Assembly (NCBI GenBank): GCA_022844275.1
Contig: JALHMB010000008.1
Span: 186,001-250,000 of the forward strand
Direction: 5' to 3'
Source: Hyphomicrobiaceae bacterium
Lineage (GTDB): Bacteria; Pseudomonadota; Alphaproteobacteria; Rhizobiales; Hyphomicrobiaceae
Length of the DNA stretch: 64,000 nt
Both the position numbers and the translations under genes were made by a program. Below, one piece after another: positions 4,921 to 30,114 of the stretch (the first letter of the stretch is position 1; the number at the start of each line of letters is the position of its first letter). The notes beneath the pieces are model-generated. The model was not told the DNA's origin, ran no database searches, and saw only the letters and a list, made by a program, of their open reading frames with translations.

Positions 4921-5688
4921 ATGCGACCCAACAAGATCAAGCAGATGTGGCGGGACGGCAAATACGTGACTCTGGGCTGGCTCTCCGTGTCCCACGGGTT
5001 CACGGCCGAGGTCATGGCGCGTCAGGGCTTCGATGCCCTCTGCGTCGACTTGCAGCACGGCACCTCCGAGATGAATGACGTTGGGCCGTTGTTGCAAGCG
5101 ATCTCGCAGACCGACACGGCCCCAGTCGTTCGCGTCGCATGGAACGAGCCGGCGACCATCATGAAGGCCTTGGACCTCGGCGCCTATGGCATCATCGTGC
5201 CGCTGGTCAATACGGCGCAGGAAGCGGCGAAGGCGGTGGCTGCGTGCCGCTATCCGCCGGTCGGCATTCGCTCATCAGGGCCCGTGCGCGCCATCCACTA
5301 CGGCGGCGCCGACTACGTCGCCAAGGCCAACGACGAGATCGTCGTCATGGCCATGATCGAGACGAAGGAGGGGCTCGAAAACCTCGACGCCATCTGCGCC
5401 ACGCCCGGTCTCGACGCCGTCTACATCGGGCCGGCTGACCTGTCGTTCGCATTGGGCCTGACGCCGCGTGGCGATAATCCCGATCCGCTTCACCTCGCGA
5501 CTTGCGACAAGATCCTGAAGTCCGCGCACAAGCACGGGATTAAATGCGTCATGCATTGTGCCAGCGCCGCGTTTGCGGCAGGTGCCGTCAAGCGCGGCTT
5601 CGACATGGTGATGCTGACCTCCGACCTCTCCTGCATGATCGCCGGCGCGCGCCAGCAGCTCGACGAGCTCAAGGCCAAGACGTCCTGA
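4921..5688 (+). CDS. HpcH/HpaI family class II pyruvate aldolase
   Basis: A metal-dependent aldolase of 255 residues, related to 4-hydroxy-2-oxoheptanedioate and 2-dehydro-3-deoxyglucarate aldolases, which split 2-keto-4-hydroxy acids into pyruvate and an aldehyde. The family motifs are visible: CVDLQHG (residues 41-47, with the catalytic His), RSSGPVRA near 119, the metal Glu in AMIETKEGLENL, and YIGPADLS with the metal Asp. GGGAGGTG precedes the ATG at 4921 by about 6 nt. It lies just upstream of the RutR-type regulon but on the far side of its first operator, so there is no sequence evidence that it belongs to it. The exact substrate is not predictable. Confidence 0.88.
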   Translation: MRPNKIKQMWRDGKYVTLGWLSVSHGFTAEVMARQGFDALCVDLQHGTSEMNDVGPLLQAISQTDTAPVVRVAWNEPATIMKALDLGAYGIIVPLVNTAQEAAKAVAACRYPPVGIRSSGPVRAIHYGGADYVAKANDEIVVMAMIETKEGLENLDAICATPGLDAVYIGPADLSFALGLTPRGDNPDPLHLATCDKILKSAHKHGIKCVMHCASAAFAAGAVKRGFDMVMLTSDLSCMIAGARQQLDELKAKTS

Positions 5689-5762: not shown

Positions 5763-5778
5763 TTGACCATTTGGTCAG
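5763..5778. promoter_or_regulatory. RutR-type operator O1
   Basis: TTGACCATTTGGTCAG matches the known RutR consensus TTGACCA-N2-TGGTCAA at all but the last base. It lies upstream of the flavoprotein gene and, through it, of the regulator gene at 7273. The left half TTGACC could serve as a -35 element, but the -10 opposite it is weak. Two further copies occur at 7965 and 14219. Confidence 0.8.
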
Positions 5779-5898
5779 ATTTTGATGAACTGCCACTCGT
5801 TGCCAGAACGAGGCGCAGGCCTAATCGCTTGCGCTGTTGGCAAGACAGGGCGGGCGGCTGCGAGAGCCGACAGGACTGGCTATCAGGCACGATCCGCA

Positions 5899-7197
5899 AT
5901 GGGACGAGTGATCATCGTGGGCGGCGGGGCAGCGGGCGTGTGGCTCGCGGCGCTCCTCGCGGATCGCGGCATCTCGGAAATCGACATCATCGAACCGAGC
6001 ATGCTTCTAGGACGCGGCGCGGCCTACGCGACGAACAATCCCGATCATCTCCTCAATGTGACCCCGGACAAGTTGGACCCACACCCAGTAAACGGATACG
6101 AAACTTTCTCTTCCTGGCTCGCGCGGCACCGGCCGGAACTCGTCTCAGGCTATTGTCCGCGCGGTGTTTTCGGCGCGTACATGGACGACGTCGTGCGCGA
6201 GCTTCGCTCTCGCGCCGCCATACGGCATCACTGCTCCACCGCCACGGAGATTTCTGCCCAACCGAGCGGACTCGCCGTCATTCTGGAAGACGGCACATCG
6301 CTGGTCGCTGATCATGTCGTCCTGGCCATCGGGAATCTGCCACCGCGCCGGATCGCGCCGCAGCTCAAGCATCGGCGCGTCATCGAAGATCCCTGGCGAC
6401 TGGATGCCGAGACGATCAAGGGCGCGCACAAAGTCGTCATCGCCGGAAGTGGCCTAACTGCCGCGGATGTCGCGATCTCAGTCAACGAAGCCGCGCCTGA
6501 TGCAGAGATTGTATTGTCGGCCAATCGCCCCTTCATGCCCCCTGCCGATGCCACGGTCGTCAATTGGACAGGGGCCGGCGACATACCCGCCGCGCGGCCA
6601 TCGCGCGTTTGGCAGTATGTCGTGCGCGAGATCCGATCAGGCGATGCCACGGATCACTGGATCTCGGTCATCGAGGCCACCAAGTCGCACGCACCGCGTC
6701 TCTGGGAGGCGTGGATCCCGCGAGATAGAGCGACATTCGCGCGGCATGGACTTCGGCACTGGCTGCATCATCGCCACCGGATGCCGGCGCCGTCATTCGC
6801 CCTCATGCAAAAGCTGATCGCGACAGGCCGGCTCAGCATCGCGCGCGGCCGCGTCGGCGATGTCGAGATTGCCGGAGATGAAGTCCACCTCACGATCGGC
6901 GGGCGGCCGGTCACCGCCGATGTGCTCATAAATGCGACTGGGCCGAGCGTGGACATCATCGATGAGCCACTTCTCAAGGCGGCAGCAGATCGCGGACTGA
7001 TTTCACCGGATGCCTATGGCTTGGGGCTTGCTGCTAGCCAATCAGGTCAGGCTCTCGGCCCCGATGGGCGCCGAACGCGAGGTCTGTGGATCCTGGGCGC
7101 CTGGACACGCGGCACGCACTTCGAGGTCGTCGCCGTCCCGCTGCTGCGAAAGCACGCCGGCTTGATCGTCGATGCCATTACCGCTGATCTCAACTGA
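5899..7197 (+). CDS. FAD/NAD(P)-binding flavoprotein (NAD_binding_9 type)
   Basis: A 432-residue flavoprotein. The dinucleotide fold begins at once: RVIIVGGGAAG (3-13), followed by the acidic strand end DIIEPS, then GRGAAYATNNPDHLLNVTPD, a signature of the FAD-NAD(P)-binding group that also holds YdhS-like proteins. A second Rossmann element is KVVIAGSGLTAADVA. Near the C terminus are DVLINATGPSVD and GLWILGAWTRGTHFEVVAVP. The start at 5899 is chosen because the fold begins there; an upstream in-frame stretch to 5782 has no protein-like character, though no strong ribosome site marks 5899. It is first behind RutR-type operator O1 and probably co-transcribed with the regulator. A role in pyrimidine degradation, for instance an oxidation step, is inference from this context only. 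Confidence 0.82.
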   Translation: MGRVIIVGGGAAGVWLAALLADRGISEIDIIEPSMLLGRGAAYATNNPDHLLNVTPDKLDPHPVNGYETFSSWLARHRPELVSGYCPRGVFGAYMDDVVRELRSRAAIRHHCSTATEISAQPSGLAVILEDGTSLVADHVVLAIGNLPPRRIAPQLKHRRVIEDPWRLDAETIKGAHKVVIAGSGLTAADVAISVNEAAPDAEIVLSANRPFMPPADATVVNWTGAGDIPAARPSRVWQYVVREIRSGDATDHWISVIEATKSHAPRLWEAWIPRDRATFARHGLRHWLHHRHRMPAPSFALMQKLIATGRLSIARGRVGDVEIAGDEVHLTIGGRPVTADVLINATGPSVDIIDEPLLKAAADRGLISPDAYGLGLAASQSGQALGPDGRRTRGLWILGAWTRGTHFEVVAVPLLRKHAGLIVDAITADLN

Positions 7198-7272
7198 ACT
7201 GCGCTTTCTTGTTCAGCGCGCGCATCTGACGTACACAGACCGGAGGTGCAACCGGGAAAACTGGAGCCGACG

Positions 7273-7968
7273 GTGACCAAACACGCCCGGGTGAGCGAGA
7301 CTAGTCGGCATGGCGACGCCCACAGCGTCAGAATGCGAAACAATATCAAGATCCTGAGCGCCGCGGAGGAGGTCTTCGCCGAAAAGGGGTTCGATGGCGC
7401 GACGACACAGGAGATTGCGGATCGCGCGGGCCTGCCGAAAGCCAACGTGCACTACTACTTCCGCACCAAGAAGGACATTTACCTCGCGGTTATGAGCTCC
7501 ATCATGGCGCCATGGCTCGAGGCATTCCAAGCCATCAGCGCCGAAGACGATCCGACGGAAGCGCTCGGCAATTACATCCGCCGGAAGGTAATGCTCTCCA
7601 AGGAGCGGCCACTCGCATCCCGGATCTTCGCCAATGAAATGATCCGCGGTGCCCCAGTCCTTTCGGAGTTTCTCAACAGCGATCTCAACGATTGGGTCGA
7701 CGAGAAGGTGGGCATCCTCAGGCAGTGGGCCAAGCGCGGAAAAATGGATCCCATCCCGCCGCATCACCTCTTCTTCGTCATCTGGGCGGCAACCCAGACT
7801 TACGCCGACTTCGAGGTGCAGGTGTGCAGCATTCTTCGGCGCGATCGCCTCACGAGCGGCGACTTCGATACCGCCGCTGACTTCATCACTACACTCGTTC
7901 TCAAGGGCTGCGGCGTGCGCCCATCTGATCAGAAAACAGGCAGGCGGAGTGCGAAGCGCACTACTTGA
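7273..7968 (+). CDS. rutR: RutR-like TetR regulator of pyrimidine degradation
   Basis: A 231-residue TetR regulator that resembles Escherichia coli RutR along its length: the helix-turn-helix (TTQEIADRAGLPKANVHYYF, 44-63), ASRIFANEMIRGAPVL, WAKRGKMDPI, and HHLFFVIWAATQTYADFEVQV, which parallels the RutR ligand-domain stretch ending WASTQHYADF. RutR binds uracil or thymine and releases DNA. The start is the GTG at 7273, with GGAG 6 nt upstream; a GTG at 7246 has its only ribosome-like sequence too close. Three copies of the RutR operator sequence surround the gene, one of them overlapping its own stop codon (7965-7980). This makes an autoregulated uracil-sensing repressor very likely; ligand identity is inferred. 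Confidence 0.9.
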   Translation: MTKHARVSETSRHGDAHSVRMRNNIKILSAAEEVFAEKGFDGATTQEIADRAGLPKANVHYYFRTKKDIYLAVMSSIMAPWLEAFQAISAEDDPTEALGNYIRRKVMLSKERPLASRIFANEMIRGAPVLSEFLNSDLNDWVDEKVGILRQWAKRGKMDPIPPHHLFFVIWAATQTYADFEVQVCSILRRDRLTSGDFDTAADFITTLVLKGCGVRPSDQKTGRRSAKRTT

Positions 7969-7980
7969 CCACTTGGTCAA
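7965..7980. promoter_or_regulatory. RutR-type operator O2
   Basis: TTGACCACTTGGTCAA is a perfect match to TTGACCA-N2-TGGTCAA; the symmetry extends by one pair (7964-7981). It overlaps the rutR stop codon (7966-7968) and lies 235 bp upstream of the ABC importer. Its left half can act as a -35 (TTGACC, 7965-7970) with TACGAT at 7988-7993 as -10, spacer 17 nt, so bound repressor would cover the promoter. Confidence 0.88.
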
Positions 7981-8050
7981 GTCACCATACGATCCTCGCG
8001 TTCTCACAGCAGACTTGTGCGTTGGGGAAGTACGCCTGCTGCTTCCGGAA

Positions 8051-8089
8051 TGTCACGTCGAGTGCGCGGACGACGCGTGCGACGTGACA
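8051..8089 (+). promoter_or_regulatory. Perfect 10-bp hairpin in the leader of the ABC importer operon
   Basis: TGTCACGTCG (8051-8060) and CGACGTGACA (8080-8089) are exact inverted repeats with a 19-nt loop, inside which CGCG (8065-8068) can pair with CGCG (8074-8077). It lies between operator O2 and the ATG at 8215. It may be an mRNA structure or a site for a second DNA-binding protein; no T run follows, so it is not a standard terminator. Function unknown. Confidence 0.55.
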
Positions 8090-8214
8090 CTTTCGAGCAA
8101 GCAGCCTGCACCGCCCGGGTGGTCCTTGCAGTGGGGGCGTCCTAAGAAACTTCAATCACGACGTGTTCGGGAGAACGTCAACCCAGAGGAGCTTCAAACG
8201 AGGGAGCTCTCACC

Positions 8215-9237
8215 ATGTCGGATCACAGCCTAGACCGCCGCAGATTTCTTGGTACCGCCGCTTCGGGCGCGATGCTCGCTGCGCTGCCGTTTCGATCGGC
8301 AATTGCAGCAAGCGAGAACGTCAAGATCGCCTACGGCAGCGACGGTTATACATGGTCGGTGCCGTACGTCGCCGATGGTATCGAGTCCTGGAAGAAGCAC
8401 GGCCTCAATCCCTCGATGGCAACTTTCCCTTCCGGCCGCGAGTCGCTCGAATCCGCTCTCACGAAGGACTCGGATTTCGGTACGACGACGGATTCGCCGT
8501 ATCTGTTTGCGGCGATGCGCGGCTTGAAGCCGGTCATCTTTGCGAACTATCAGCGCTACTCGAACGATATGAAGATCGTTGCGCGGACCGGCCGGGGTAT
8601 CAGCGGAAACGATCCTGCATCCCTCAAGGGCAAGCGCGTCGCAACGCGCATCGGCACCAGCGGTCACTACGCGCTCCATCGCTATCTCGAGATGGCGAAG
8701 CTCAAGAAGTCGGACGTGACGATCGTCAACATGACTCCCGGCGATGCGATCAACGCCATGGTGCGCGGTGACGTGGATGGTCTGTCCTGGACGAGCCGTG
8801 CGGCTTTCGTCGTCCAGAACGCGCTCAAGGAAGAAGCTTTCATCATGACCCAGGAGGGTTATTCCAAGTTCTTCGCCAGCCATCAGCTCATGTGCACGAA
8901 CGAGACTGTCGTGGCCGAGCGGCCGGGCATCCTGAAGGCGGGCGTCCAGGCGCTCATGGACGCCGAGGCCTTCATAGCGAAGGACAAGTCGTGGATGGAT
9001 ATCGTCGCCAAGCGCACGAAGACAACGCCTGACGCTGTCGCAAAGGAAACCGCGGATTTCGAATTCCAGCTTCGTTTCGATGACCGGTTCGTGCAGGATC
9101 TGATCGAAGCTGCAGAATGGGCGATCGACGAAAAGCTGGCCAAGCGTCCCGACGGGGATATGCGCAAACTCTTCGTTAGCACGATCTACACGAAAGCGCT
9201 CACCGAGATCGCGCCCGACCGCGTGAAGCTCAGCTAG
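8215..9237 (+). CDS. ABC transporter substrate-binding protein, SsuA/NMT1-like, Tat-exported
   Basis: Periplasmic binding protein of 340 residues. The N terminus has a twin-arginine signal (DRRRFLG at 7-13, then a hydrophobic stretch and a cleavage region near AIAAS, about residue 33), suggesting export in folded form. The mature part has the NMT1/SsuA pattern: VKIAYGSDGYTWSVPYVADGI, GRESLESALTKDSDFGTTTDSP, and LKGKRVATRIGTSGHYALHR, as in taurine, sulfonate and pyrimidine-precursor importers. It heads an operon with ATPase and permease behind operator O2, so its ligand is probably a pyrimidine or a related ring compound, by inference. A 234-nt leader with a perfect hairpin precedes it. Confidence 0.88.
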   Translation: MSDHSLDRRRFLGTAASGAMLAALPFRSAIAASENVKIAYGSDGYTWSVPYVADGIESWKKHGLNPSMATFPSGRESLESALTKDSDFGTTTDSPYLFAAMRGLKPVIFANYQRYSNDMKIVARTGRGISGNDPASLKGKRVATRIGTSGHYALHRYLEMAKLKKSDVTIVNMTPGDAINAMVRGDVDGLSWTSRAAFVVQNALKEEAFIMTQEGYSKFFASHQLMCTNETVVAERPGILKAGVQALMDAEAFIAKDKSWMDIVAKRTKTTPDAVAKETADFEFQLRFDDRFVQDLIEAAEWAIDEKLAKRPDGDMRKLFVSTIYTKALTEIAPDRVKLS

Positions 9238-9254
9238 GGTTGAGCCGAGCATCC

Positions 9255-10004
9255 ATGAGTGCCCTGATCGATATTCAGAACGTCTCGAAGATTTATGCGA
9301 GCGCAGACGACAGTACGGCATGGGCGCTACAGGACGTCTCGGTTCAGCTTCACAAAGGAGAGTTCGTGTGTGCCATAGGCCCCTCGGGCTGTGGCAAAAC
9401 AACTCTCCTCAATATCATCGGCGGCTTCACGCAACCGACAGAGGGCAAGGCATTGCAGGACGGTGAGCCGATCACCGCACCAGGCCCCGATCGCGGCGTC
9501 GTGTTCCAGGAGTACGCTCTCTTTTCCTGGTTGACGTCGCGCGAGAATATCGAGTTCAGCCTTCGCGTGAAGGGCGTACCCAAGAAGGAGCGCCGTGAGC
9601 GCGCCGAGCACTATCTCGATCTGATCGGGCTGCGGCGCGCGGCGGATCGCTATCCCGGCGAGCTGTCCGGCGGCATGCGTCAGCGCGTTGCCGTCGCACG
9701 CGCGCTCATCAATGAACCCGAAATACTGCTGATGGACGAGCCGTTCGCGGCCGTCGACGCCATGACGCGCGCGACGCTCCAGGAGGAACTGCTGCGCTTG
9801 TGGCAGACGCTCGGCCTCAGCATTCTCTTCATCACGCACAACATCGAAGAAGCTGCGTTTCTTGCGAGTCGCATCATTATCATGTCGCCGCATCCGGGAC
9901 GCATCAAGGATATCGTCAGCGTGGATCTGCCTTATCCGCGCGATCGCGGATCGCCGGAATTCGCTGCTGTATACGGGCGCGTGGATAGGGCATTCCACAC
10001 ATGA
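9255..10004 (+). CDS. ABC transporter ATP-binding protein (SsuB/TauB type)
   Basis: ATPase subunit of the importer, 249 residues from the ATG at 9255. Walker A is GPSGCGKTT (42-50), the Q-loop lies in VFQEYALFSW, the signature is LSGGMRQRV, Walker B is ILLMDEPFAAVD and the switch His is in ITHNIEEAAF. These closely follow nitrate/sulfonate/taurine-type ATPases. A TTG at 9240 is also in frame but sits directly on the end of the previous gene's stop and its AGGG. Its stop codon overlaps the start of the permease by 4 nt, so the two are translationally coupled. Confidence 0.92.
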   Translation: MSALIDIQNVSKIYASADDSTAWALQDVSVQLHKGEFVCAIGPSGCGKTTLLNIIGGFTQPTEGKALQDGEPITAPGPDRGVVFQEYALFSWLTSRENIEFSLRVKGVPKKERRERAEHYLDLIGLRRAADRYPGELSGGMRQRVAVARALINEPEILLMDEPFAAVDAMTRATLQEELLRLWQTLGLSILFITHNIEEAAFLASRIIIMSPHPGRIKDIVSVDLPYPRDRGSPEFAAVYGRVDRAFHT

Positions 10005-10888
10005 GCCAGTCACCCCAAAGCAACGGCGCGAGCGCGGATACAGCAGCTCAGTCTGAATCGCGTGACGCTCATCTGCGCGTCAGGGAAGAGCAGTTTCTGC
10101 GCGATCTGAAGGCCGATCGACGGCGCCAATCCATTCGCCAACTCTCCCTCAACATTCTTGGCATCGTCCTGTTTCTCGCGGCCTGGGAAGCGACGCCCCA
10201 CGTCATCCCCTGGATGAACCGCCTGCTGTTTCCGCCGCCTTCCGATGTCGTTGGGACATTGCGGGAGCTCATCGAATCCGGCGAGCTCATCGAGAACATC
10301 AGGGTCAGCCTCCTACGCGTGCTCAATGGCTTCATCATCGCGACCATTCTCGGCACGCTCGCCGGTTTGCTGACCGGGCGCCTTCAGCTTCTTCAGTTCC
10401 TGAGCGACCCCATTCTTCATGGCATGCGCTCCATTCCGGCCATTGCGCTCGTGCCTCTGTCGCTGCTGTGGTTCGGCATCGGCGAGCCGTCGAAAGTCGC
10501 GCTGATAGCCTGGGGAGCGTTCTTCCCGATCTGGCTCAACACCTACACCGGCGTGCGCGATGTGCCGCCCGTGCTTCTTCGCTCGGCGATGAGCCTTGGC
10601 GCGGGGCGCGTGCAGACGATGTTCCTCGTCATTCTTCCCGCGGCACTCCCCTTCATCCTGGTCGGCCTCAGGCAAGGGATCGGCATCGCGCTCATCGTGC
10701 TTGTAGCGGCTGAACTCGCCGGTGCCAGTTCGGGTATCGGCTACATGATCGCCACCTCACATCAGCTCTTCCGCGTGGACATCATGTTCATCGGGATCGC
10801 GACGCTCGGCTTCCTTGGCTATGTGGTCGATCGTCTGTTCACCCTGCTCCAGAGTTACCTGTTTCCCTGGTACTCCTCTGGAAAGTGA
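10001..10888 (+). CDS. ABC transporter permease (SsuC/TauC type)
   Basis: Inner-membrane permease of 295 residues with about six helices after a polar N-terminal tail of some 45 residues. The helices include LNILGIVLFLAAWEATP and FIIATILGTLAGLLTG; the EAA-type loop that docks to the ATPase is in AMSLGAGRVQTMFLVILPAALPFIL, the usual position and wording for this family. The start overlaps the ATPase stop (ATGA). Together with the two upstream genes it forms a complete importer under operator O2; by context it may carry a pyrimidine-related ring compound. Confidence 0.92.
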   Translation: MSQSPQSNGASADTAAQSESRDAHLRVREEQFLRDLKADRRRQSIRQLSLNILGIVLFLAAWEATPHVIPWMNRLLFPPPSDVVGTLRELIESGELIENIRVSLLRVLNGFIIATILGTLAGLLTGRLQLLQFLSDPILHGMRSIPAIALVPLSLLWFGIGEPSKVALIAWGAFFPIWLNTYTGVRDVPPVLLRSAMSLGAGRVQTMFLVILPAALPFILVGLRQGIGIALIVLVAAELAGASSGIGYMIATSHQLFRVDIMFIGIATLGFLGYVVDRLFTLLQSYLFPWYSSGK

Positions 10889-10912
10889 TCTCAACCGCGT
10901 GGGGGATGTCTA

Positions 10913-12595
10913 GTGCCGCTCGATGTGTATGGCAGCGCCGACTTCATCCTCACAGGCGGGCGCGTGCGGACTTTCGATCCTGACCACAGTGAGTGTGAAG
11001 CCATTGCGATCTCGGGAAACCGCATTCTCGCAATCGGCAGCGCCGCGGACATCCGCGGTCTAGCTGGCCCCCACACCGAATTGATCGATATTGCTGGCGC
11101 CACGGTCATCCCCGGTTTCAACGACACACACGCTCACTTGGATCGTGAAGGGCTGAAACTGCGCCGCCTTTCGCTTGCCGGCGCACGAAGTATCGCCGAG
11201 GTTCTCACACGTATCTCCACCGCTGCCGCGATGACACCCGCCGGACGCTGGATCGTGACCATGCCAGTTGGCGAGCCGCCATACTACTTCGGCGGCCCCG
11301 CCTATCTTGCCGAAGGAAGGATGCCCACGCGCGACGAGCTGGATCGCGCAGCCCCGGATAATCCGGTGTGCATCTCAGCGGCATTCGGCAACTGGGGAAA
11401 ACCGCCCTGCTTCACTGCGCTCAACACGGCGGCACTCCATCTCAACGGCATTGACCGTCATTCCAGTCCTGCCTGTGCGGGCGTCGAGATCATGAAGGAT
11501 GAGGCAGGCGAGCCGACGGGCGTGATCATCGAGCACAATCCGCGCCCCACGATCGACAATGACCTCCTCACGGCCGTACCGCGCTTCTCGTTCGAGGATC
11601 GTCGCGATTCGCTCGTCGATGCCATGCGGCTCTACAATGCAGTCGGCACGACGAGCATTTATGAAGGCCATGGCTTCGCGCCGCGCACCATCGCCGCATT
11701 TCGCGAGTTGTGGGAGAAGGGGAAGCTCACGACGCGCGTCGGCCTCGTAATGAGCCCGACGTGGAAGAGCATTGCGGAAGCCCGCGCTGAGATCGATGAC
11801 TGGAAAGCCACGGCCCAGGGGCGCGGCCTCGAAGATCCATGGTTCAAGATCTGCGGCCTGCATGTGGCATTCGGCGGTGATCCCAAGACGGCAGCGCTCT
11901 CCCGACGCTCTTTGCCCGATACTGGATGGGCCGGCTTTGTGGAGCAGGCGAATGACGAAGCGACCTTCCTCGAATACGCGATGCTTTGTGCGGAGTTCGA
12001 CATTCGCCTCAATACGATCGTCGCCGACAACTTGCATCGCGTCGTGCCGTTGCTTCAGAAGGTCGCCGCAAACTACGATCTCACGGGCCGCCGCTGGGTC
12101 ATCCAGCATATCGCGCGCTGCCGCGGCGAAGATCTCACTGCGCTCAAGCGGCTCGGCGTGCTCGTAACGACAATACCTGTCTACTATCTATGGAAGGGCG
12201 GCGCGGCTTATCTCTCTGACGCCGACGGCGGCGAAAGCGTCGTGCCGCATCGTGCGATGCTGGGCGCCGGTATTCCCGTCTCGTCGGGAACAGACAATAT
12301 TCCCTACGATCCGGCGTTCACGCTCTGGACGATGATGTGTCGCCAGGAACGCACGACCGGGCGCGTACTTGGTAGATCGCAATGCCTCACCGGTGAAGAC
12401 GCCCTGCGCCTGCTCACCGTGAACGGCGCCCATCTCACGTTCGATGAAAGCGACAAAGGACCACTGAGCCGCGGCTTTCTGGCGGATCTGACTGTGTTGG
12501 ATGGAGATCCGACCACGCTTGCTGCCGAGCACGTGCGGAAGCTGAAGTGCCTGCTGACAATGGTCGACGGAAAGATCGTCCATCGCGCGCTCTGA
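10913..12595 (+). CDS. Amidohydrolase family 3 (YtcJ-like) metal-dependent hydrolase
   Basis: A 560-residue amidohydrolase of the YtcJ-like group. It starts at GTG 10913 with GGGGGA about 6 nt upstream. The N-terminal beta domain leads to the metal motif GFNDTHAHLD, and VSSGTDNIPYDPAFTLW carries the Asp near the end of the barrel; WVIQHIARC supplies the usual metal histidine. The C-terminal DLTVLDGDPTTL is standard for the superfamily. Enzymes of this group cleave amide or N-acyl bonds, but specificities differ widely. It follows the ABC permease by 24 bp, hence likely the last gene of the O2 operon. Here it might cleave a ring-opened or ureido intermediate, by inference. Its stop is only 5 bp from that of the convergent amidohydrolase. 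Confidence 0.85.
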   Translation: MPLDVYGSADFILTGGRVRTFDPDHSECEAIAISGNRILAIGSAADIRGLAGPHTELIDIAGATVIPGFNDTHAHLDREGLKLRRLSLAGARSIAEVLTRISTAAAMTPAGRWIVTMPVGEPPYYFGGPAYLAEGRMPTRDELDRAAPDNPVCISAAFGNWGKPPCFTALNTAALHLNGIDRHSSPACAGVEIMKDEAGEPTGVIIEHNPRPTIDNDLLTAVPRFSFEDRRDSLVDAMRLYNAVGTTSIYEGHGFAPRTIAAFRELWEKGKLTTRVGLVMSPTWKSIAEARAEIDDWKATAQGRGLEDPWFKICGLHVAFGGDPKTAALSRRSLPDTGWAGFVEQANDEATFLEYAMLCAEFDIRLNTIVADNLHRVVPLLQKVAANYDLTGRRWVIQHIARCRGEDLTALKRLGVLVTTIPVYYLWKGGAAYLSDADGGESVVPHRAMLGAGIPVSSGTDNIPYDPAFTLWTMMCRQERTTGRVLGRSQCLTGEDALRLLTVNGAHLTFDESDKGPLSRGFLADLTVLDGDPTTLAAEHVRKLKCLLTMVDGKIVHRAL

Positions 12596-12600
12596 CCGGC

Positions 12601-14142
12601 TCAACTCCCAACTATGGGATAGGATGGCGGGTTCATTTGATCGGCTGTGCGGTTGAGCGGATCCCAATCCTGCAGCGACGCCCAGACACCATCGGCCATC
12701 TTCTGCGCCGATGCCCGGAGAGCGGACACATCGACGCCGGTGACTGCGCGATCCTGCATTCTCATTACACCATCGACCATCACGGAGCGAACATCGTCAG
12801 CCGTTCCGCACTCGATAAGGCTCCGGATTGGATCGCGGACGGGGCCGATTCTCAATCCCGTACCACCCTTGAGATCTATGAGGCTGATGTCCGCCTTGGA
12901 GCCGACACTTATGCGCCCGATGTCCTCCCGGCCGAGTGATTTCGCAGGACCGAGGGTTGCGGCATCGAACATCTCGGACGCGGTCGCAGAGTGGAGATCA
13001 CGCGCGAGCACCTTTCCAAAATAGGAAGCCGTACGCATCTGCATCATCATATCGCGCGGATAGGTGTCAGTTCCGAGGGCCATATTTACGCCGGCGGCAC
13101 GATATCGCTTCCAGTTGTCCAGGCTTCGTGCGCGGCGCACGAGATTGACGGGACAATGAGAGACCGTGCAGCCATGATGGCCGATCAAGCCGATGTCATT
13201 CCCGCCGGAGAAGTGCAGCGGCGCAGCCTCGCCGACAAAGTTGCAGTGACCGAGATTGAGCAGCGGCCCGAGATCCAGCAGGCCCTGTGCCGCGGCAAAG
13301 GCAATGGGCGTCATGCCTTCCCGCGTGACGATCTGATAGAATTCGTGGACATTGTAAGCCGTATGCATCGCGACGGGCACGCCGCTTTTGCGGGCGACGC
13401 CGAGGCACGCGCGAAGGAGTTCGCGACTGCATGTCTCGCTGAAGCGCGGCACGATCGCACCACGGATACGATCCTCGGCGGTCCCCGAGACCTGCTCCAG
13501 GAACGCAAGGCCAGCATCGAGCTCGGCAATACCAGCAGCCTCGTCCCAATTGAAGATCGGCCGGCCCGCAACATCACACGACCAGTGGCCGGACTCGCAG
13601 CCGGCAGCAAGATAAGCCCGCGCGCCAATGCGCTCGGTCGCGCGAGCAAGCGCCTGCTGCATGGGAAGTTTGGCGCCGAACTCCAGGAACGTCGTGATCC
13701 CGCTCTGCATCAGCTCGACAACAGTGAAATCCGCTTCGAGCTGCGCACGCTCCGCCGCAGACATGCCAGTGCGGCTATCCACATTAGGACCGCCAGAATG
13801 CATGGTACCGGGACGCGCGATGGCCACTTCGAGAAAGGGCTGTCCAAACAGGTCTGGACGGCCGCTGTCGGAGAAAAGGCGATGCAGTGCCCGGCTTCCC
13901 GCGTGAACGTGCACGTCAATAAAGCCGGGCGCTACGAGCATTCCGGTGCCGTCGATCGAATGTTCTACCGTCCCGTCATATGATCGGCCGACATGAACGA
14001 CGCGGCTTCCTTCGACCACCACTACGCCATCGGGAATGAGGACATGCCCGCGGCCATCGTAAGCCACCACCCAATCGCCGCGAAGCAATGTCGCCACTAT
14101 TTCCGCCCCTTTCGTCCAATCAATCGGCACAGAAGCCGACAT
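12601..14142 (-). CDS. TrzA/ATZ-type amidohydrolase (chlorohydrolase/deaminase family)
   Basis: Metal-dependent hydrolase of 513 residues from the ATG at 14142, related to guanine/cytosine/triazine deaminases. Visible features are the N-terminal LLRGDWVVAYDGRGHVLIPDGVVVVEG, the metal pair HVHAG, MHTAYNVHEF, LNLGHCNFVG, HHGCTVSHCPVN and the Asp in ALGTDTYPRDMMMQM. The order matches ATZ/TRZ hydrolases that remove amino or other groups from nitrogen rings. An upstream in-frame ATG at 14226 would add 28 residues that look like a signal peptide, but it lies inside operator O3, so the internal start is preferred. It is divergent from the URC1-like operon and shares O3 with it, suggesting a role in the same pathway, for example deaminating a pyrimidine. 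Confidence 0.85.
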   Translation of the reverse strand: MSASVPIDWTKGAEIVATLLRGDWVVAYDGRGHVLIPDGVVVVEGSRVVHVGRSYDGTVEHSIDGTGMLVAPGFIDVHVHAGSRALHRLFSDSGRPDLFGQPFLEVAIARPGTMHSGGPNVDSRTGMSAAERAQLEADFTVVELMQSGITTFLEFGAKLPMQQALARATERIGARAYLAAGCESGHWSCDVAGRPIFNWDEAAGIAELDAGLAFLEQVSGTAEDRIRGAIVPRFSETCSRELLRACLGVARKSGVPVAMHTAYNVHEFYQIVTREGMTPIAFAAAQGLLDLGPLLNLGHCNFVGEAAPLHFSGGNDIGLIGHHGCTVSHCPVNLVRRARSLDNWKRYRAAGVNMALGTDTYPRDMMMQMRTASYFGKVLARDLHSATASEMFDAATLGPAKSLGREDIGRISVGSKADISLIDLKGGTGLRIGPVRDPIRSLIECGTADDVRSVMVDGVMRMQDRAVTGVDVSALRASAQKMADGVWASLQDWDPLNRTADQMNPPSYPIVGS

Positions 14143-14218
14143 TGCCGAGGCTACACTACGATCCAACCAGCCCGTGAGACAGCCGATCGCTGTCCAGGCA
14201 ACTATTGCGGAACTGAAT

Positions 14219-14248
14219 TTGACCATTTGGTCAACTTTTGTCTATACT
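14219..14248 (+). promoter_or_regulatory. RutR-type operator O3 and overlapping promoter of the URC operon
   Basis: TTGACCATTTGGTCAA (14219-14234) is a perfect RutR-consensus palindrome. Its first six bases, TTGACC, make a -35 element, with TATACT at 14243-14248 as a good -10, spacer 18 nt. Repressor bound here would block polymerase directly. The site is shared with the divergent amidohydrolase at 14142 and lies 69 bp upstream of the URC1-like start. Confidence 0.88.
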
Positions 14249-14302
14249 TGAGTTCTCACAGAGCTGACTTTCGGTTCCCTCACCTCAACAGAGGAACACC
14301 CG

Positions 14303-15547
14303 ATGTCGCGGTCACGTCACATCGTACTGACATCGCACGCTCCACGTGGTCCGAATTGGCGCCCGCCAATCCAGTGGGGCGAACCTGATCCTCTCAAGCG
14401 CGGACCGATCATTGGTACGGTAACGAATCCGATGGCGCGCAACGCCATCGGCACGCATTCGGGAAGCTATTCCGTTTATTTGGCTGTGTCGGTCGCTATC
14501 GGGCGACTGGCCAATGGCCACGTGCCTGACCTGACCAACACGGCTCCCTTGCTTCCGATCGGCCCGTTTCCTCAGTGGAGCGATCCAGCCAGGATCGTCT
14601 CTCTGGATCCATGGGGCCATCTCGTCACCGAGGTCTTCAAGGATCAGATCGCGCAGGGCATCGATATACGCCCCACGATTGCGGTCACGCAGGCTCGTAT
14701 GAGTGTTCCAGAAGTACGCTCGGCGATTGAAGCAGGCCGGCTCCGGCCCGACGGTAAAATACTCCTCGCCAACGGCGACATACAGGCGACGAAAATCGCG
14801 ATTGATCCGGTCTGGCATTTGCCGGGCATCGCGAAGAGATTCGGTGTCGAAGAAGGACCGTTCCGTCACGCGCTCTTCCAGCAGACTGGCGGCATGTACC
14901 CCGAGCTGGTCACGCGCACCGACCTTGAAGTGTTTCTTCCGCCAATAGGCGGCACCACCGTCTACATCTTCGGAGATCTTCGGGATCTTGCAGACCGTTC
15001 CAAGCCGCTCGCTTGCCGTGTCCATGACGAATGCAATGGCTCTGACGTGTTCGGCTCGGATATCTGCACCTGCCGACCCTATCTCACGCATGGCATCGAG
15101 GTCTGTGTGAAAATGGCGCAAGAGGGCGGCAGCGGCCTTGTCGTGTACAATCGCAAGGAAGGGCGCGCACTCGGCGAAGTGACGAAATTCCTCGTCTATA
15201 ACGCGCGGAAGCGGCAGCTCGGCGGAGACACCGCGGCAAACTACTTCATCCGCACGGAGTGTGTTGCCGGCGTGCAGGACGCGCGCTTTCAGGAACTCAT
15301 GCCGGATGTCCTGAATTGGCTTGGCATCACGCGCATCGATCGCCTGGCATCCATGAGCAACATGAAGCACGACGCGCTGGTCGCGCATGGCATCGAGATC
15401 GTCGAGCGGATCGATATTCCGCCCGAGCTCATACCCGACGATGCGATGGTCGAGATCGAGGCGAAGAAGGCCGCAGGTTATTTCACGACTAAGGATGTCC
15501 TCGATGCCGAGGCTCTCATGGACGTCAAGGGACGCGATATTACGTGA
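14303..15547 (+). CDS. URC1-type GTP cyclohydrolase II homologue of uracil catabolism
   Basis: A 414-residue protein, twice the size of RibA, with the GTP cyclohydrolase II domain in its second half. Zinc ligands are C244, C255 and C257 (DECNGSDVFGSDICTC), with the same 11 and 2 spacing as RibA. RKEGRALGEVTKF corresponds to the RibA loop RQEGRGIGL, but GIGL is replaced by ALGE. The N-terminal half (GPIIGTVTNPMARNAIG) is not in RibA. The ribosome site AGAGGAA precedes the ATG at 14303. Next door are DUF1688 (URC4) and uracil phosphoribosyltransferase, the set known as URC1, URC4 and URC6 in yeast, so it probably opens the pyrimidine ring of a uracil nucleotide rather than making riboflavin. 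Controlled by O3. Confidence 0.88.
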   Translation: MSRSRHIVLTSHAPRGPNWRPPIQWGEPDPLKRGPIIGTVTNPMARNAIGTHSGSYSVYLAVSVAIGRLANGHVPDLTNTAPLLPIGPFPQWSDPARIVSLDPWGHLVTEVFKDQIAQGIDIRPTIAVTQARMSVPEVRSAIEAGRLRPDGKILLANGDIQATKIAIDPVWHLPGIAKRFGVEEGPFRHALFQQTGGMYPELVTRTDLEVFLPPIGGTTVYIFGDLRDLADRSKPLACRVHDECNGSDVFGSDICTCRPYLTHGIEVCVKMAQEGGSGLVVYNRKEGRALGEVTKFLVYNARKRQLGGDTAANYFIRTECVAGVQDARFQELMPDVLNWLGITRIDRLASMSNMKHDALVAHGIEIVERIDIPPELIPDDAMVEIEAKKAAGYFTTKDVLDAEALMDVKGRDIT

Positions 15548-16785
15548 GAACACATGCTGATCCCGCAGCAGCGCTGCTCACGCCGGAGGCTGTGCGCGAG
15601 CGGTGCGGAAAGGTCTTCGATCTTGCACTGTCCGGCCGGACAAAGCATTTCGATGTCGACCTTGCTCGGCTCGACGTCGCCGCCGGACTGGTCGTCTCGG
15701 AGATCCGTCGCAACTACCCAAGAGGCAATGTACCGTTGCACAGTCGGTGGCGGCACTTCGAGCTGAATGGTCGTGACCTGTGGGCCGAAATTCTGGCACA
15801 CCATCAACCAATGGCCCCGGACGCTCTCGCAAGAGCGCGCATAGATCTCGCCGTCATATCCGTTCTTCTGGATGCCGGAGCCGGTGCGGACTGGCACTAT
15901 AACGACGCACCAACCGAGCTGGCCATCGGTAGATCAGAGGGTCTTGCGCTCGCCAGCCTTCGTATGTTCGAAGCCGGCTTGCTGAGCAGTACGCCCAATG
16001 AAGACCCGCTCCGTGTCGATCAAGAGAAGCTCGAAAATCTGAAGCCCGAGGCCCTGGCGCACGCCTTCCAGGCGACACCTCAGAACGCTCTGCCCGGCAT
16101 CGATCTCCGCACGCGACTTCTCAATAACCTCGGGCGCGCGTTGGCCGCTGCTCCATCCGTATTCGCCGGCAACGGTTCTGTGCGACCGGGCCATATCTAC
16201 GACTATCTGAAATCGCGCTCGGATGCGGGTGGCACTGTTCCCGCGCGGCTCATCCTCATCACCCTGCTCGAGCACTTAGGAGCGGCGTGGCCCGGCGCGC
16301 GGCGTTTCGGCGATGTGGTGATCGCGGATGCAGGTGACTTCCCCCTGCTCGAGCTGGCGGGCGCTGCTGATGGCATCGTTCCGTTTCACAAGCTTTCGCA
16401 GTGGCTTTCGTATTCGCTGATCGAGCCACTTCAAGAAGCCGGCCTGACGATCAGCAATCTGGACGACCTGACAGGCCTCGCCGAATATCGGAATGGCGGG
16501 CTCTTCATCGACACACGCGTGCTCGTTCTCAAGGATCGGTCAGCACTCGATCGCGCCCACGATGCCACGAGTGAGCTCATCGTCGAGTGGCGCGCACTCA
16601 CTGTTGCGCTGCTGGATCGTCTCGCAGTCCGGGTGCGCGAAATGACGGGCACCGATGCGACTTCACTTCCACTCGGTGCCGTTCTTCAAGGTGGCACGTG
16701 GTCAGCAGGCCGCCGCATTGCTGCAGACCTGCGCCCTGGCGGTCCCCCGCCGCTGACCATTACCACCGACGGTACTCTCTTCTAG
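15544..16785 (+). CDS. URC4/urg3 family protein (DUF1688)
   Basis: A 413-residue DUF1688 protein, the usual size for the family. It begins at GTG 15544, overlapping the URC1-like stop by 4 nt. Typical stretches are [10 protein letters not shown] near the N terminus, [42 protein letters not shown], and near the end [16 protein letters not shown] and [12 protein letters not shown]. In Lachancea kluyveri URC4 is needed to use uracil as a nitrogen source and in Aspergillus its relative urg3 is uracil-regulated; the reaction is thought to follow the URC1 step, but I know of no firm active-site assignment. The strict order URC1-URC4-UPRT with overlaps argues for a dedicated pathway. Confidence 0.9.
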
Positions 16786-16802
16786 TGATGGAGCAGAACT
16801 CT

Positions 16803-17438
16803 ATGCCGGCATCCAATGTCACTGTCGTCACCCATCCGCTGGTACAGCACAAACTGACACTTATGCGGGACGCCGGCACGGCATCATCCAAGTTCAGAAT
16901 TCTTCTGCGCGAGATCGGCCTGCTGCTCACGTACGAGATCTGCCGCGATCTCGAAACAGAACTGGTCGAAATAACCACGCCACTCGAGACCTACATGGCA
17001 CCGCGGCTCGAGGGCAAGAAACTCTGCTTCATCTCCATTCTTCGCGCCGGAAACGGCCTGGTCGATGGAATGCTCGATCTCGTGCCCTCTGCCCGCGTGG
17101 GGCATATCGGCCTCTACCGCGATCCGCGCTCGCTGGTGCCTATCGAGTACTACATGAAGCTGCCCGATCAGATCGAGGAGCGGCTGTGCATCTGCGTGGA
17201 CCCGATGCTTGCAACGGGCAACTCCGCCGTCGCTGCAGTACATCGCCTGAAGGACGCAGGAGCCAAGCGCATCAAGTTCGTCTGTCTGCTTGCAGCACCC
17301 GCTGGCATCGAGAACTTCTCGGCAGCCCATCCGGATGTGCCGATCCTCACGGCCTCTATCGACCGCGGGCTCAACGATCATGCCTACATCGTCCCTGGGC
17401 TCGGCGACGCCGGCGATCGAATGTACGGCACGAAATAA
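16803..17438 (+). CDS. upp: Uracil phosphoribosyltransferase
   Basis: Converts uracil and PRPP to UMP. From the ATG at 16803, with GGAG (16790-16793) 9 nt upstream, it has 211 residues, close to the 208 of the E. coli enzyme. The N-terminal [14 protein letters not shown] is the standard opening. PRPP binding is by [11 protein letters not shown], and near the C terminus [16 protein letters not shown] forms the uracil-binding tail. An ATG at 16788 is also possible. It is third in the O3 operon, 17 bp after the DUF1688 gene. In the yeast URC pathway the UPRT (URC6) is a catabolic step that primes uracil for ring opening, so this copy may serve degradation more than salvage. Confidence 0.95.
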
Positions 17439-17660: not shown

Positions 17661-19091
17661 ATGAAGGACGTATTTCAAGCCCTTATCGATAGTCTCCAGT
17701 CACTCGCATTACTGAAGCCGCGACCGGATGCCTTCTCGGTTCCCTTGACGACGCACGTAACCATCTACGGGATTTACATCCTGTCATTGGCAGGCCTCGA
17801 GCGTGCGTGGACCGAGGGACCTCGTACATTTGATGCCAGCGGCATTGCGTCAGCCCTGGCAGCGCTCTGTATATCTCTGGCGCTGTTGTCTCTGCTGCCG
17901 CTGAGAAGTCGCGGCGCGGCACCCGAGCGGATCGTGCTTGGCTCGGTCGCGGTAAGCATCCCCATGCTCGCGCTCGCGGCCGTCTACGGCTACCTGCTCC
18001 GACGTTTGGCCGGCATTAGCCCGGCGAACATCGACATTGAAGACTCCCTATTGCCACTAGCCGCCTTCCTGGTCCTGGTGGTGTGGGGATGTCTCGTGCT
18101 ATTCCGGCTCATCTACGGCATGGTGAGCCGGCAGCGGGCGCTGCTCGCTTTCGCCGGTATGTTCCTGGTGCTCATATCGCCGTTCATCCTGCCCAATACC
18201 GGCATCATCAAGGGACGGGACGACGAAGATACACAGTTCTCGCTGCTGCAGGTGGTAGTGGATGCGCTTCGGCGCGCGCCCGAGGTATCAGTTGCTTCGC
18301 AGGCGCCCGCGGGCCCACCCATCGACGGCGAGGCTCTGATGATGCGACAGCACGCGCTCGTCGCGAAGTCGATTTCGGACTTGCAGCCGGCGCGCCAAGG
18401 CCAGGCAGAACTCTACTTCGTGGGGTTCGCGTCCTACAGTCAGCAGGACGTCTTCAGGCGCGAAGTCGCCGCCGTCAAAGAACTCTTCGACGAGCGATTT
18501 GGAACTTCCGGCCGCTCGATCATTCTGCAGAATCATCGCGAAAGCATCGACGATGTACCGCTCGCCAGCGTCTCGAATCTGGAAACGGTGCTCCGCGAGA
18601 TCGGTGGCCGAATGAATGTCGAGCGCGATGTCCTGGTGCTGTTCGTGACCTCCCACGGCTTCGGGGACGTCATCTCGGTATCCATGGAGGGTGTGCGCCT
18701 CAACAACCTTACGCCGCCCCGGCTCGTCAATGCGCTCGCGCAGTCCGGCATCAAGAACCGCGTGCTCGTGCTCTCGGCCTGCTACTCCGGCAGCTTCGTT
18801 TCTGACTTGAGCGATGACAACACGCTGATCCTCACTGCGGCCCGCTCGGATCGAACCTCGTTCGGATGTAGCAACGAGCGCGAATGGACGTTCTTCGGTG
18901 ATGCCTACTTCAATCATGCACTGCGGAAAGAGCGCTCGTTCATAAGGGCCTATGAGCGCGCACGCGTATTGATCGAGTCTTGGGAAAAGGCGCAAGGGCT
19001 GACCGCCTCGGAACCGCAGATGTTTGTCGGGGCGGCCATCCGCGACAAGATCGACGCAATTCTTGCGGCGCGCGTTACGACCGTAAATTGA
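17661..19091 (+). CDS. Membrane-anchored C13 (legumain/caspase-like) peptidase family protein
   Basis: A 476-residue protein in two parts. The first 190 residues hold about five membrane helices (ASALAALCISLALLSLLPL, GSVAVSIPMLALAAVYGYLL, FLVLVVWGCLVLF, LLAFAGMFLVLISPFIL). The rest is a soluble domain with the C13 fold: ELYFVGFASYSQQDVF, LVLFVTSHGFGD with catalytic H332, and VLVLSACYSGSF with catalytic C374, then LTAARSDRTSFGCSNEREWTFFGDAYFN, a stretch conserved in bacterial C13 proteins. The soluble domain probably faces the periplasm. It lies 222 bp after upp on the same strand with no visible operator, so a link to pyrimidine use is not shown. No clear ribosome site at the ATG. Confidence 0.85.
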   Translation: MKDVFQALIDSLQSLALLKPRPDAFSVPLTTHVTIYGIYILSLAGLERAWTEGPRTFDASGIASALAALCISLALLSLLPLRSRGAAPERIVLGSVAVSIPMLALAAVYGYLLRRLAGISPANIDIEDSLLPLAAFLVLVVWGCLVLFRLIYGMVSRQRALLAFAGMFLVLISPFILPNTGIIKGRDDEDTQFSLLQVVVDALRRAPEVSVASQAPAGPPIDGEALMMRQHALVAKSISDLQPARQGQAELYFVGFASYSQQDVFRREVAAVKELFDERFGTSGRSIILQNHRESIDDVPLASVSNLETVLREIGGRMNVERDVLVLFVTSHGFGDVISVSMEGVRLNNLTPPRLVNALAQSGIKNRVLVLSACYSGSFVSDLSDDNTLILTAARSDRTSFGCSNEREWTFFGDAYFNHALRKERSFIRAYERARVLIESWEKAQGLTASEPQMFVGAAIRDKIDAILAARVTTVN

Positions 19092-20287: not shown

Positions 20288-21070
20288 ATGGCACTGCAGA
20301 TGAAGCAACTTCCCACTTTCCGGCTCGACGGCCGCACAGCGCTGGTGACCGGCGCGGGCCGTGGCCTCGGCGCCGGTATGGCGCACGGCTTGGCACAGGC
20401 TGGCGCGCACGTCGTACTCGCAGCGCGGACATCCGCCGAGATCGAGCGCGTCGCCGGCGAGATCGTCGCCGATGGCGGGAACGCGACCACGATAACACTG
20501 GATGTAACCAATGAAGCCGAGGTGCGCCGGACGTTCGCCGAGCTGCCGTCCCTGGACATCCTCGTCAACAACGCGGGTACCAACATCCCGCAGCCCTTCG
20601 TCGACGTCGAAACGCGCGCCCTCGACACGCTGCTCGGCTTGAACGTGCGGGCTGCCTTCATCGTGGCGCAGGCCGCCGTCCAGCGCATGCGAGCCGACAA
20701 GGATCGCCGCGAGCGCGGCGGCGCAGTCGTCAACATCACCTCGCAACTCGGCCGCGTCGCCATGAAGGGACGCAGCGTCTACACCATGACGAAGCACGCG
20801 CTCGAGGGCCTCACCAAGGCCATGGCCATCGAGCTTGCCGCCGACAATATCCGCGTCAATGCTGTCGGACCGACCTGGGTCGACACGCCCATGACGCGTC
20901 CTGCACTTGCCGATCCGGCACTGCGCAATGACGTGCTTGGCAGCATTCCCATGGGGCACATGGCACAGATCGAGGATGTGGTCGGTGCCGTGGTGTTTCT
21001 GGCATCGCCGGCAGCTGGCATGATCACCGGCGCGAGCCTCGTCGTCGACGGCGGCTGGACAGCACGGTGA
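20288..21070 (+). CDS. SDR family NAD(P)-dependent oxidoreductase
   Basis: Short-chain dehydrogenase of 260 residues from the ATG at 20288. The cofactor motif TGAGRGLGAG follows LDGRTALV, then ILVNNAGTN, the catalytic Ser in VVNITSQLGRVA, and YTMTK with Tyr and Lys. The C-terminal LASPAAGMITGASLVVDGGWT is normal for the family. The start is uncertain: ATG 20288 has AGGGGG almost touching it, and ATG 20300 has the same element 13 nt away; both fit the fold, while the frame open back to 20018 does not. It is 4 bp upstream of the FAD subunit gene of the molybdenum hydroxylase and likely in one operon with it. Confidence 0.9.
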   Translation: MALQMKQLPTFRLDGRTALVTGAGRGLGAGMAHGLAQAGAHVVLAARTSAEIERVAGEIVADGGNATTITLDVTNEAEVRRTFAELPSLDILVNNAGTNIPQPFVDVETRALDTLLGLNVRAAFIVAQAAVQRMRADKDRRERGGAVVNITSQLGRVAMKGRSVYTMTKHALEGLTKAMAIELAADNIRVNAVGPTWVDTPMTRPALADPALRNDVLGSIPMGHMAQIEDVVGAVVFLASPAAGMITGASLVVDGGWTAR

Positions 21071-21074
21071 TCGC

Positions 21075-21944: not shown

Positions 21945-22407
21945 TGACAACAACACGCGCATCGCGCTCACCGTGAATGGCGAGACGGTCACGGCGAACG
22001 TGCCGGCGCGGCTGAACCTCGCGGACTTCTTTCGTCACGATCTTGGCCTCACGGGCACGCATGTCGGCTGCGAGCATGGTGTATGTGGCGCCTGCACGGT
22101 GCTCGTCGACGGCAAGCTCGCGCGGAGCTGCCTCATGCTGGCGGTCCAATCCGATGGTGCGCGCGTCGAGACGATCGAAGGCGCCGACGCAAGCGGACGC
22201 ATCACGAAGCTCCAGCAGGCCTTTCATCGCCGCAACGCCTTGCAATGCGGCTTCTGCACGCCCGCCATGCTCCTCACAGTAGGCGAGCTGCTGCGCGTCA
22301 ATCCCAAGCCGAGCCGCGACGAGGTGCGCGACTGGATCTCCGGCAATCTCTGCCGCTGCACGGGCTACCAGGCCATTGTCGATGCGGTCATGGAGGTCTC
22401 TGCTTGA
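21937..22407 (+). CDS. Molybdenum hydroxylase 2Fe-2S subunit (CoxS/XdhC type)
   Basis: Small iron-sulfur subunit of 156 residues from the ATG at 21937. The N-terminal ferredoxin-like cluster is bound by [15 protein letters not shown] plus a following Cys in ARSCLM. The second cluster is in the helical domain with CGFCTPAML and CRCTGYQ. Length and all eight cysteines agree with the family. A GTG at 21913 is in frame, but would lie deeper inside the upstream gene. Its own stop overlaps the TTG start of the large subunit. Confidence 0.94.
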
Positions 22408-26263: not shown

Positions 26264-26267
26264 GGGG

Positions 26268-27287: not shown

Positions 27288-27296
27288 GGATACTTC

Positions 27297-28804: not shown

Positions 28805-28873
28805 GCGGCCTCAAGAACGCCGAAGCCAGCGGGCGCTCACGAGGCGCCCGCCAGCATCAGTCGTTGCAGCTTC

Positions 28874-30094: not shown

Positions 30095-30114
30095 GATCTC
30101 CTCCCTTACGTCCG

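Follow-up and report, generated by a model that had tools for sequence, protein, structure and literature searches.

A block of genes at positions 5763-17438 of a 64,000-nucleotide stretch of a Hyphomicrobiaceae genome (the window, by which the whole stretch is meant) is probably a uracil-inducible regulon for pyrimidine uptake and for degradation by the URC route, in which a RutR-type repressor would control URC1, URC4 (DUF1688) and uracil phosphoribosyltransferase (UPRT), and in which URC4 would act as an N-ribohydrolase with the fold of Qng1. URC is one of the four known routes of uracil breakdown (PMC7530994). In the mechanism that we propose, the repressor would act on three operators, controlling its own unit, the unit of an ATP-binding cassette (ABC) importer and the hydrolase AH3, and the divergent units of the hydrolase AH1 and of URC1-URC4-UPRT, and the binding of uracil would release it. 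UPRT would convert uracil and phosphoribosyl pyrophosphate into uridine monophosphate (UMP), URC1 would open the pyrimidine ring of UMP hydrolytically, URC4 would split the resulting (phospho)ribosylurea at its N-glycosidic bond into urea and ribose or ribose phosphate, and the urease of the genome would release ammonia from the urea. The pathway would be fed by the ABC importer and by AH1, the latter probably as a nucleobase deaminase. The sites, the genes, their conservation, the predicted fold of URC4 and the urease gene are results of the analysis; we infer operator binding, induction, each of these reactions, the phosphate on the intermediate and the substrates of the importer and of AH1.

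Operators and Putative Promoters

The operator pattern is the 16-bp palindrome TTGACCANNTGGTCAA, which is of the known RutR operator type. In the genome that contains the window (6,075,391 bases in 24 contigs, 98.9% complete), only three sites match it with at most one mismatch, and all of them lie in the block: operator 1 at 5763-5778 (TTGACCATTTGGTCAG, one mismatch), which precedes the unit of a flavin adenine dinucleotide (FAD) protein and RutR; operator 2 at 7965-7980 (no mismatch), which overlaps the end of the RutR gene and precedes the ABC importer-AH3 unit; and operator 3 at 14219-14234 (no mismatch), which is intergenic between the divergent AH1 (- strand) and URC1 (+ strand). These are the places where an earlier note, made from the sequence of this DNA, had put three RutR operators. 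Under a first-order Markov model of the window, 0.33 sites with at most one mismatch are expected in the genome as against the three seen, the expectations per 6.08 Mb being 0.006, 0.32 and 7.6 for zero, one and two mismatches, respectively. With two mismatches, 18 more matches are found in the genome, and the backwards pattern gave four at up to two mismatches. One two-mismatch site lies about 7 kb from the urease alpha gene and made urease a candidate for RutR control; since 7.6 such sites are expected per genome (18 seen), it was treated as chance.

Two of the operators also coincide with promoter-like sequences. A TTGACC-18-TATACT match starts where operator 3 starts, and a TTGACC-17-TACGAT match coincides with operator 2; the candidate -35 hexamer is the left half-site at operators 2 and 3 and at five operators from the order of a SAR116 cluster genome (described below), and the gap of 18 nt from TTGACC to a hexamer starting with TA is common to operator 3 and five of the five SAR116-order sites. 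Because the -35 candidates sit in the operators and the gap is kept in the SAR116-order sites, repression through covering of the promoter is suggested. Two results of the promoter scan weigh against this: over 13 kb it gave five matches compared with 3.6 in shuffled sequences, which by itself is a weak signal, and none of the matches falls at operator 1.

A RutR-Type Regulator

The regulator (7273..7968, + strand) is a TetR-type protein, predicted to be a uracil-sensing repressor, which matches the TetR_C_3 ligand domain with 172 bits (cut-off 25) and aligns to residues 21-208 of Escherichia coli RutR. It is the sole RutR homolog at E <= 1e-20 in the genome among the seven of 24 first-look candidates that were scored. 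The uracil contacts in the crystal structure of E. coli RutR are W77, Y97, W167, Q171 and Q179 (PMC10891134), and all of them, together with the helix-turn-helix lysines K52 and K62, are conserved in the regulator. The comparison took in 34 further homologs, among them five of the SAR116 order, and the residues are conserved in these as well. The operators at 5763 and 7965 flank the unit of the regulator, which is probably autoregulated.

The pairing of RutR with this operator is general in the class (Alphaproteobacteria). As a control, 18 other RutR loci of the class were examined; 53 other genomes have a homolog, and the loci come from those with the better scores. A site of at most two mismatches was found within 600 bp of RutR in 14 of the 18, against none with the reversed pattern. 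Furthermore, the 16-mer TTGACCATTTGGTCAG recurs identically beside RutR in three loci (L307, L308, L316), and between RutR and URC1 in the SAR116-order genome G679. L308, one of the 18 control loci, is a reductive-pathway (Pyd) cluster which, like the block, has RutR beside this operator and an NMT1-type ABC importer, and which differs from it in that the neighbours are PreA/PydA and an amidase of the hydantoinase/carbamoylase family instead of URC genes. Some observations count against the assignment: the regulator remains below the NCBIfam cut-offs of both RutR equivalogs (180.7 of 368 bits for TIGR03613, 163.9 of 230 for NF011584), in four of the 18 control loci (L302, L304, L305, L306) the 600-bp range contains no site with two mismatches or fewer, and two of these, L302 and L304 (tree rows L262 and L264), are near the RutR of the window in the tree. 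In comparison with the E. coli RutR regulon (rutA-G, carAB), the block shares a RutR-type TetR repressor, a 16-bp palindrome and identical uracil contacts; it differs in the control of URC instead of Rut, in a regulator under the equivalog cut-offs and in a genome with no RutB over cut-off.

URC4 as a Predicted Qng1-Fold N-Ribohydrolase

URC4 (15544..16785, +) belongs to DUF1688 (PF07958, 440 bits, cut-off 25). Its relation to Qng1 had been guessed ahead of the structural model, which was made with AlphaFold2 from an alignment of 42 sequences and has a mean pLDDT of 94.6. All of the 11 significant matches of the model in the PDB are Qng1/DUF2419 structures, with E-values from 2.4e-9 to 1.1e-7 and TM scores by target of 0.72-0.76; the best Foldseek match has probability 1.00 and E 2.4e-9, and the next match after Qng1 has E 0.45. 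Qng1 is a queuosine-5'-phosphate hydrolase, which removes the queuine base both from queuosine and from the phosphate of queuosine (PMC11130926). Two of its residues, K199 and D231, were mutated by PDB depositors, according to the entry titles, and in an alignment of the 42-residue motif only they correspond to K276 and E307 of URC4, which are invariant in 42 of 42 DUF1688 proteins. Since the predicted fold is that of Qng1 and the aligned Lys and Glu are invariant, we propose that URC4 is an N-ribohydrolase that would free urea from a ribosylurea. The degradation chemistry is proposed because yeast URC4 is placed at the conversion of ribosylurea to urea, the steps from uracil to ribosylurea being described as not characterized (PMC7530994). 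To the full version of the proposal we give slightly better than even chances: URC4/DUF1688 of both bacteria and yeasts would be a Qng1-superfamily N-ribohydrolase, and, in a pathway switched by RutR, URC1 would hydrolyse UMP to phosphoribosylurea, from which URC4 would release urea and ribose 5-phosphate.

At the sequence level the link is weak, and several points tell against the proposal. URC4 belongs to another Pfam family than Qng1, with 13-18% identity, and another substrate is expected for it; the window protein scores 16.0 bits against Q_salvage (PF10343), whose cut-off is 25, and Q_salvage matches, found in 16 of 42 DUF1688 members at E up to 10, are weak (best E 2.3e-4). The URC4 profile found no Qng1 chain among the PDB sequences at E up to 10, the only matches of the DUF1688 profile being two ribosomal proteins at E of about 0.5, and a profile-profile alignment of the motif, although it pairs the same columns, is weak (probability 1.3%, E 0.04). 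Moreover, the Asp mutated in Qng1 is a Glu in URC4, and the yeast source names ribosylurea and not its phosphate (PMC7530994). The Qng1 fold could be an inherited scaffold and no more, and URC4 a lyase or amidohydrolase acting otherwise on the ring-opened product, for example by releasing a three-carbon piece. The low identity, the Glu in place of the Asp and the greater length of URC4 (406 residues, compared with 315-344 in the Qng1 PDB chains) would fit such an enzyme; however, both motif positions, the Lys and the acid, are invariant in the 42 DUF1688 proteins, and the step from ribosylurea to urea assigned to yeast URC4 is an N-glycosidic cleavage (PMC7530994). We regard this alternative as unlikely, although it is the one that survives best.

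Distribution of the RutR-URC Wiring

URC in bacteria is not new, because DUF1688 is present in 38 of 385 genomes of the class; it also occurs in 80 of 297 genomes of the order (the two sets share some genomes). RutR is found in 54 of the 385, and the two occur together in three (G000, which is the present genome, G087 and G303), as compared with about five expected if they were independent. The RutR-URC wiring is unusual among DUF1688 loci. A set of 155 further loci (150 distinct) was drawn from 35 of the 37 other class matches, 40 chosen order matches and 80 of at least 573 named loci; 132 of them have at least 4.5 kb upstream of URC4, and in 111 of the 142 with enough flank URC1, URC4 and UPRT stand on one strand within 3 kb. 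A RutR homolog of at least 100 bits is present in one of the 155, L150, which is also the only one with an operator of at most one mismatch; L196 has a weak TetR match of 28%.

L150 comes from a SAR116 cluster genome, and a dedicated search found DUF1688 in 5 of 136 genomes of its order. In all five, RutR is the gene directly before URC1 and an operator separates the two, perfect in four cases and with the single mismatch of operator 1 in G679. The latter locus is split: one contig has RutR, the operator and a portion of URC1, and another has URC4 and UPRT; the set of 155 includes this other contig as L078 and L153, which end before URC1. These loci (L249-L252 and L247) share with the window RutR, operator, URC1, URC4 and UPRT, their URC1 and URC4 being sister to those of the window, and differ in having another importer and, upstream, PF01522, PF00383 and DUF1989 proteins instead of two amidohydrolases and a flavoprotein. 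The earlier note had proposed to look in related genomes for co-occurrence of the operator with DUF1688; such co-occurrence is seen in five of five DUF1688-bearing SAR116-order genomes and, among the 155 other loci, only in L150. The wider claim of the note, that a RutR sensor is apparently wired to a bacterial URC route, is supported as to the wiring by the unique sites, the sole RutR homolog, the conserved contacts and the recurrence in the five genomes; the bacterial route itself is no novelty.

A common regulator of the other URC loci was sought among 89 genes lying just upstream of URC1 (45 of 46 chosen loci) and rejected: three of the genes encode LysR regulators, and no regulator family has more matches. 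Downstream of the other URC loci, no family has more than three matches among the 51 of 90 genes scanned. Two loci of the window's order, L143 (4047-8600) and L148 (1-11300), carry a SAR116-type deaminase and a PF01522 hydrolase beside URC, and L148 also the SAR116-type importer; neither has RutR or an operator at up to one mismatch. Such deaminases and hydrolases are recurrent URC partners. In four further loci, L126-L129 (G666, G617, G651 and G634), a divergent DUF1688 protein (28-36% identical to that of the window) stands beside UPRT, with no URC1 detected within 20 kb, and these may represent a variant pathway.

In titles and abstract openings of the open-licence literature, we found no link between RutR and URC or between DUF1688 and Qng1; only two fission-yeast papers joined two such topics, and neither names RutR or SAR116. 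RutR regulons of 68 genomes in 13 groups are treated in PMC5343134, and the wiring may already stand in the tables of that article.

Evolutionary History

A tree of URC1 and URC4 was built from 51 rows of our choice, three SAR116-order rows being flagged for odd letter make-up. Here the four SAR116-order loci that are not split form a group with the window (support 96/91), whereas 11 of 14 other coded rows of the window's own order lie in a separate clade (100/100), and the only row of its own family, L110, is also apart. Because the URC1 and URC4 of the window group with SAR116 and not with their own order, a transfer between SAR116-type bacteria and the order of the window is likely on the evidence of this tree. 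L151 and L161, which follow next as sisters, have neither RutR nor an operator nearby, and their genomes hold zero and one site, respectively, at up to one mismatch. The regulator speaks less clearly for a common history, since the best RutR tree places the RutR of the window among other RutRs of the class and not with those of SAR116; a single clade of URC-linked RutRs (window and SAR116) is not rejected in the approximately unbiased test (p-AU 0.325). The wiring may have had a single origin or two. The URC4 DNA of G189, a genome of the window's order, is identical to that of Rhizobiales bacterium SYSU XM002 (L068 and L165).

Importer, Accessory Enzymes and URC1

The gene families, assigned by Pfam and NCBIfam, agree with those that had been read from the sequence before, namely a regulator, a flavoprotein, an ABC importer, two amidohydrolases, URC1, DUF1688 and UPRT; the starts at 5899, 7273, 14142 and 16803 are our choice among the listed candidates. 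The first gene (5899..7197, +) encodes the FAD/NAD(P)-binding protein (PF13454 NAD_binding_9, 102 bits), for which no close solved relative was found. Downstream of the regulator lie the genes of a predicted pyrimidine importer, consisting of an NMT1/SsuA-type substrate-binding protein (8215..9237, +), an ATPase (9240..10004, +) and a permease (10001..10888, +), the last two assigned by Pfam. They are followed by AH3, assigned by Pfam to the Amidohydro_3 family (10913..12595, +), and by AH1, an Amidohydro_1-family hydrolase (12601..14142, -) over the cut-off of NF004801/PRK06151. The true start of AH1 is probably lower than that of its longest reading, because the latter would begin inside operator 3. 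Among solved structures, AH1 is closest to unnamed amidohydrolases; 8-oxoguanine deaminase, triazine hydrolases and guanine deaminase follow at a greater distance. It is probably a nucleobase deaminase. The SAR116 locus L150 carries a PF00383 deaminase unrelated to AH1 as well as proteins of PF01522 and DUF1989; each of the three has homologs upstream in the other four SAR116-order loci. Since a deaminase occurs in both the window and the SAR116 settings, amino-pyrimidines may be fed into uracil by this enzyme.

The earlier note had further suggested that the added enzymes give the route downstream steps of its own. Homologs of at least 100 bits are rare beside other URC4 genes (the FAD protein and the substrate-binding protein in none of the 155 loci, AH3 in one and AH1 in six), and the flanks of ten other AH3 homologs (loci of 5.9-19.9 kb) have no RutR, URC gene or operator at up to one mismatch, one having an ATPase/permease pair and one an unlike importer. 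New downstream enzymes of URC were therefore rejected, and the added enzymes are better read as serving uptake and feeding than as new downstream chemistry.

The substrates of AH1, AH3 and the importer are suggested by family resemblance only, which counts against the proposed mechanism. An alternative is another inducer or target, such as cytosine, thymine, hydantoin, barbiturate or another pyrimidine or ureide, with the URC trio as one branch of a wider pyrimidine regulon. The operator is common to two amidohydrolases and a flavoprotein with no assigned substrate, the solved relatives of AH1 include 8-oxoguanine and guanine deaminases as well as triazine hydrolases, and L150 has the PF00383 deaminase and PF01522 hydrolase instead; however, the regulator keeps every uracil contact that PMC10891134 names for E. 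coli RutR, and we consider this possibility improbable, a little more so than a different chemistry of URC4.

URC1 (14303..15547, +) is GTP cyclohydrolase II-like and has a solved close homolog (PDB 7eev/7ej3, 610 bits). It scores 734.8 bits against its own NCBIfam model, NF005536 (cut-off 403), and 61.7 against RibA, and it carries in CNGSDVFGSDICTC a C-x10-C-x-C spacing, which we take to be that of the GTP cyclohydrolase II zinc site. UPRT (16803..17438, +; TIGR01091, 264.6 bits, cut-off 208.35) would have a URC6-type role. It is very improbable that the regulon, although real, serves chiefly for uracil salvage or for making a flavin-like intermediate, with URC1 as a GTP cyclohydrolase II (the name given to it by NCBIfam and the PDB depositors) and UPRT recycling uracil, because control of an importer and DUF1688 by a uracil-sensing repressor suits a degradative operon, URC1 prefers its own model to RibA by far, the fission-yeast trio urg1, urg2 and urg3 (GTP-cyclohydrolase-II family, UPRT and DUF1688) is a uracil-induced cluster (PMC2174524), and URC1-6 are reported to be essential for uracil degradation in Lachancea kluyveri (PMC7530994).

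Other Uracil and Urea Routes

The genome encodes a urease alpha subunit (195.1 bits, cut-off 23; the alpha subunit was the one searched), and for urea carboxylase (TIGR02712) it gave partial matches only, the best with 548 of 1303.85 bits; urea is probably handled by the urease. The block shares with the yeast URC systems (URC1, URC4 and URC6 of L. kluyveri, urg1-urg3 of Schizosaccharomyces pombe) the URC1-type, DUF1688 and UPRT genes, and differs from them in its RutR-type control and in a urease gene in place of the urea step of yeast URC3/URC5, which are presumably urea amidolyase.

No complete Rut or reductive pathway was found in the genome, since RutB (best 119.9 of 377.95 bits) and PreA/PydA (best 31.4 of 335 bits) are below cut-off; for the oxidative pathway no genome-wide search was made. 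A RutA over the equivalog cut-off (565.3 bits) is present outside the window, in L297 (G000:C2:778500-798400) at 9236-10612 (-), where it adjoins DusA and NuoF; the scan of neighbouring genes recognised no further rut gene, and the 20 kb of L297 contain no operator of up to two mismatches. This orphan RutA weighs against URC as the sole route, as it could open uracil in another way.

Surroundings of the Block

The GC content of the block is 0.59-0.64, compared with 0.615 for the window, and GC at third codon positions is on the low side in URC4, AH1 and URC1; base composition gives no strong island signal. An HpcH/HpaI aldolase gene at 4921-5688 was considered and rejected as part of the regulon, being upstream of operator 1; its homologs are beside URC in three loci of one genus at E <= 1e-8 (L064, L066, L070), one of them above 100 bits. 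Directly downstream of UPRT, 17661-19091 (+) encodes a protein of 476 amino acids whose C-terminal part contains a C13 peptidase domain. Further on, 20297-24773 (+) holds a short-chain dehydrogenase/reductase gene and then a molybdenum hydroxylase with FAD, 2Fe-2S and Mo subunits, whose best NCBIfam models are of the glyceraldehyde or CO dehydrogenase type, all below cut-off; no operator at up to three mismatches is found near it. About 8 kb from the URC operon, 25196-30124 (-) encodes a branched-chain/urea-type ABC transporter (BPD_transp_2) that is UrtB- and UrtD-like, below cut-offs.

Implications

The compact operon, the known type of sensor and the solved close homolog of URC1 (7eev) make the URC route testable with purified proteins, and the predicted Qng1 fold of URC4 offers a concrete reaction and two residues to mutate. 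If the proposed chemistry is true, the pathway would form a cycle that recycles ribose phosphate, since the sugar that UPRT uses up would be given back. RutR looks like a portable uracil sensor, coupled in different bacteria to Rut, Pyd or URC, and a transfer of RutR-wired URC genes between SAR116-type bacteria and a second order seems to have taken place.

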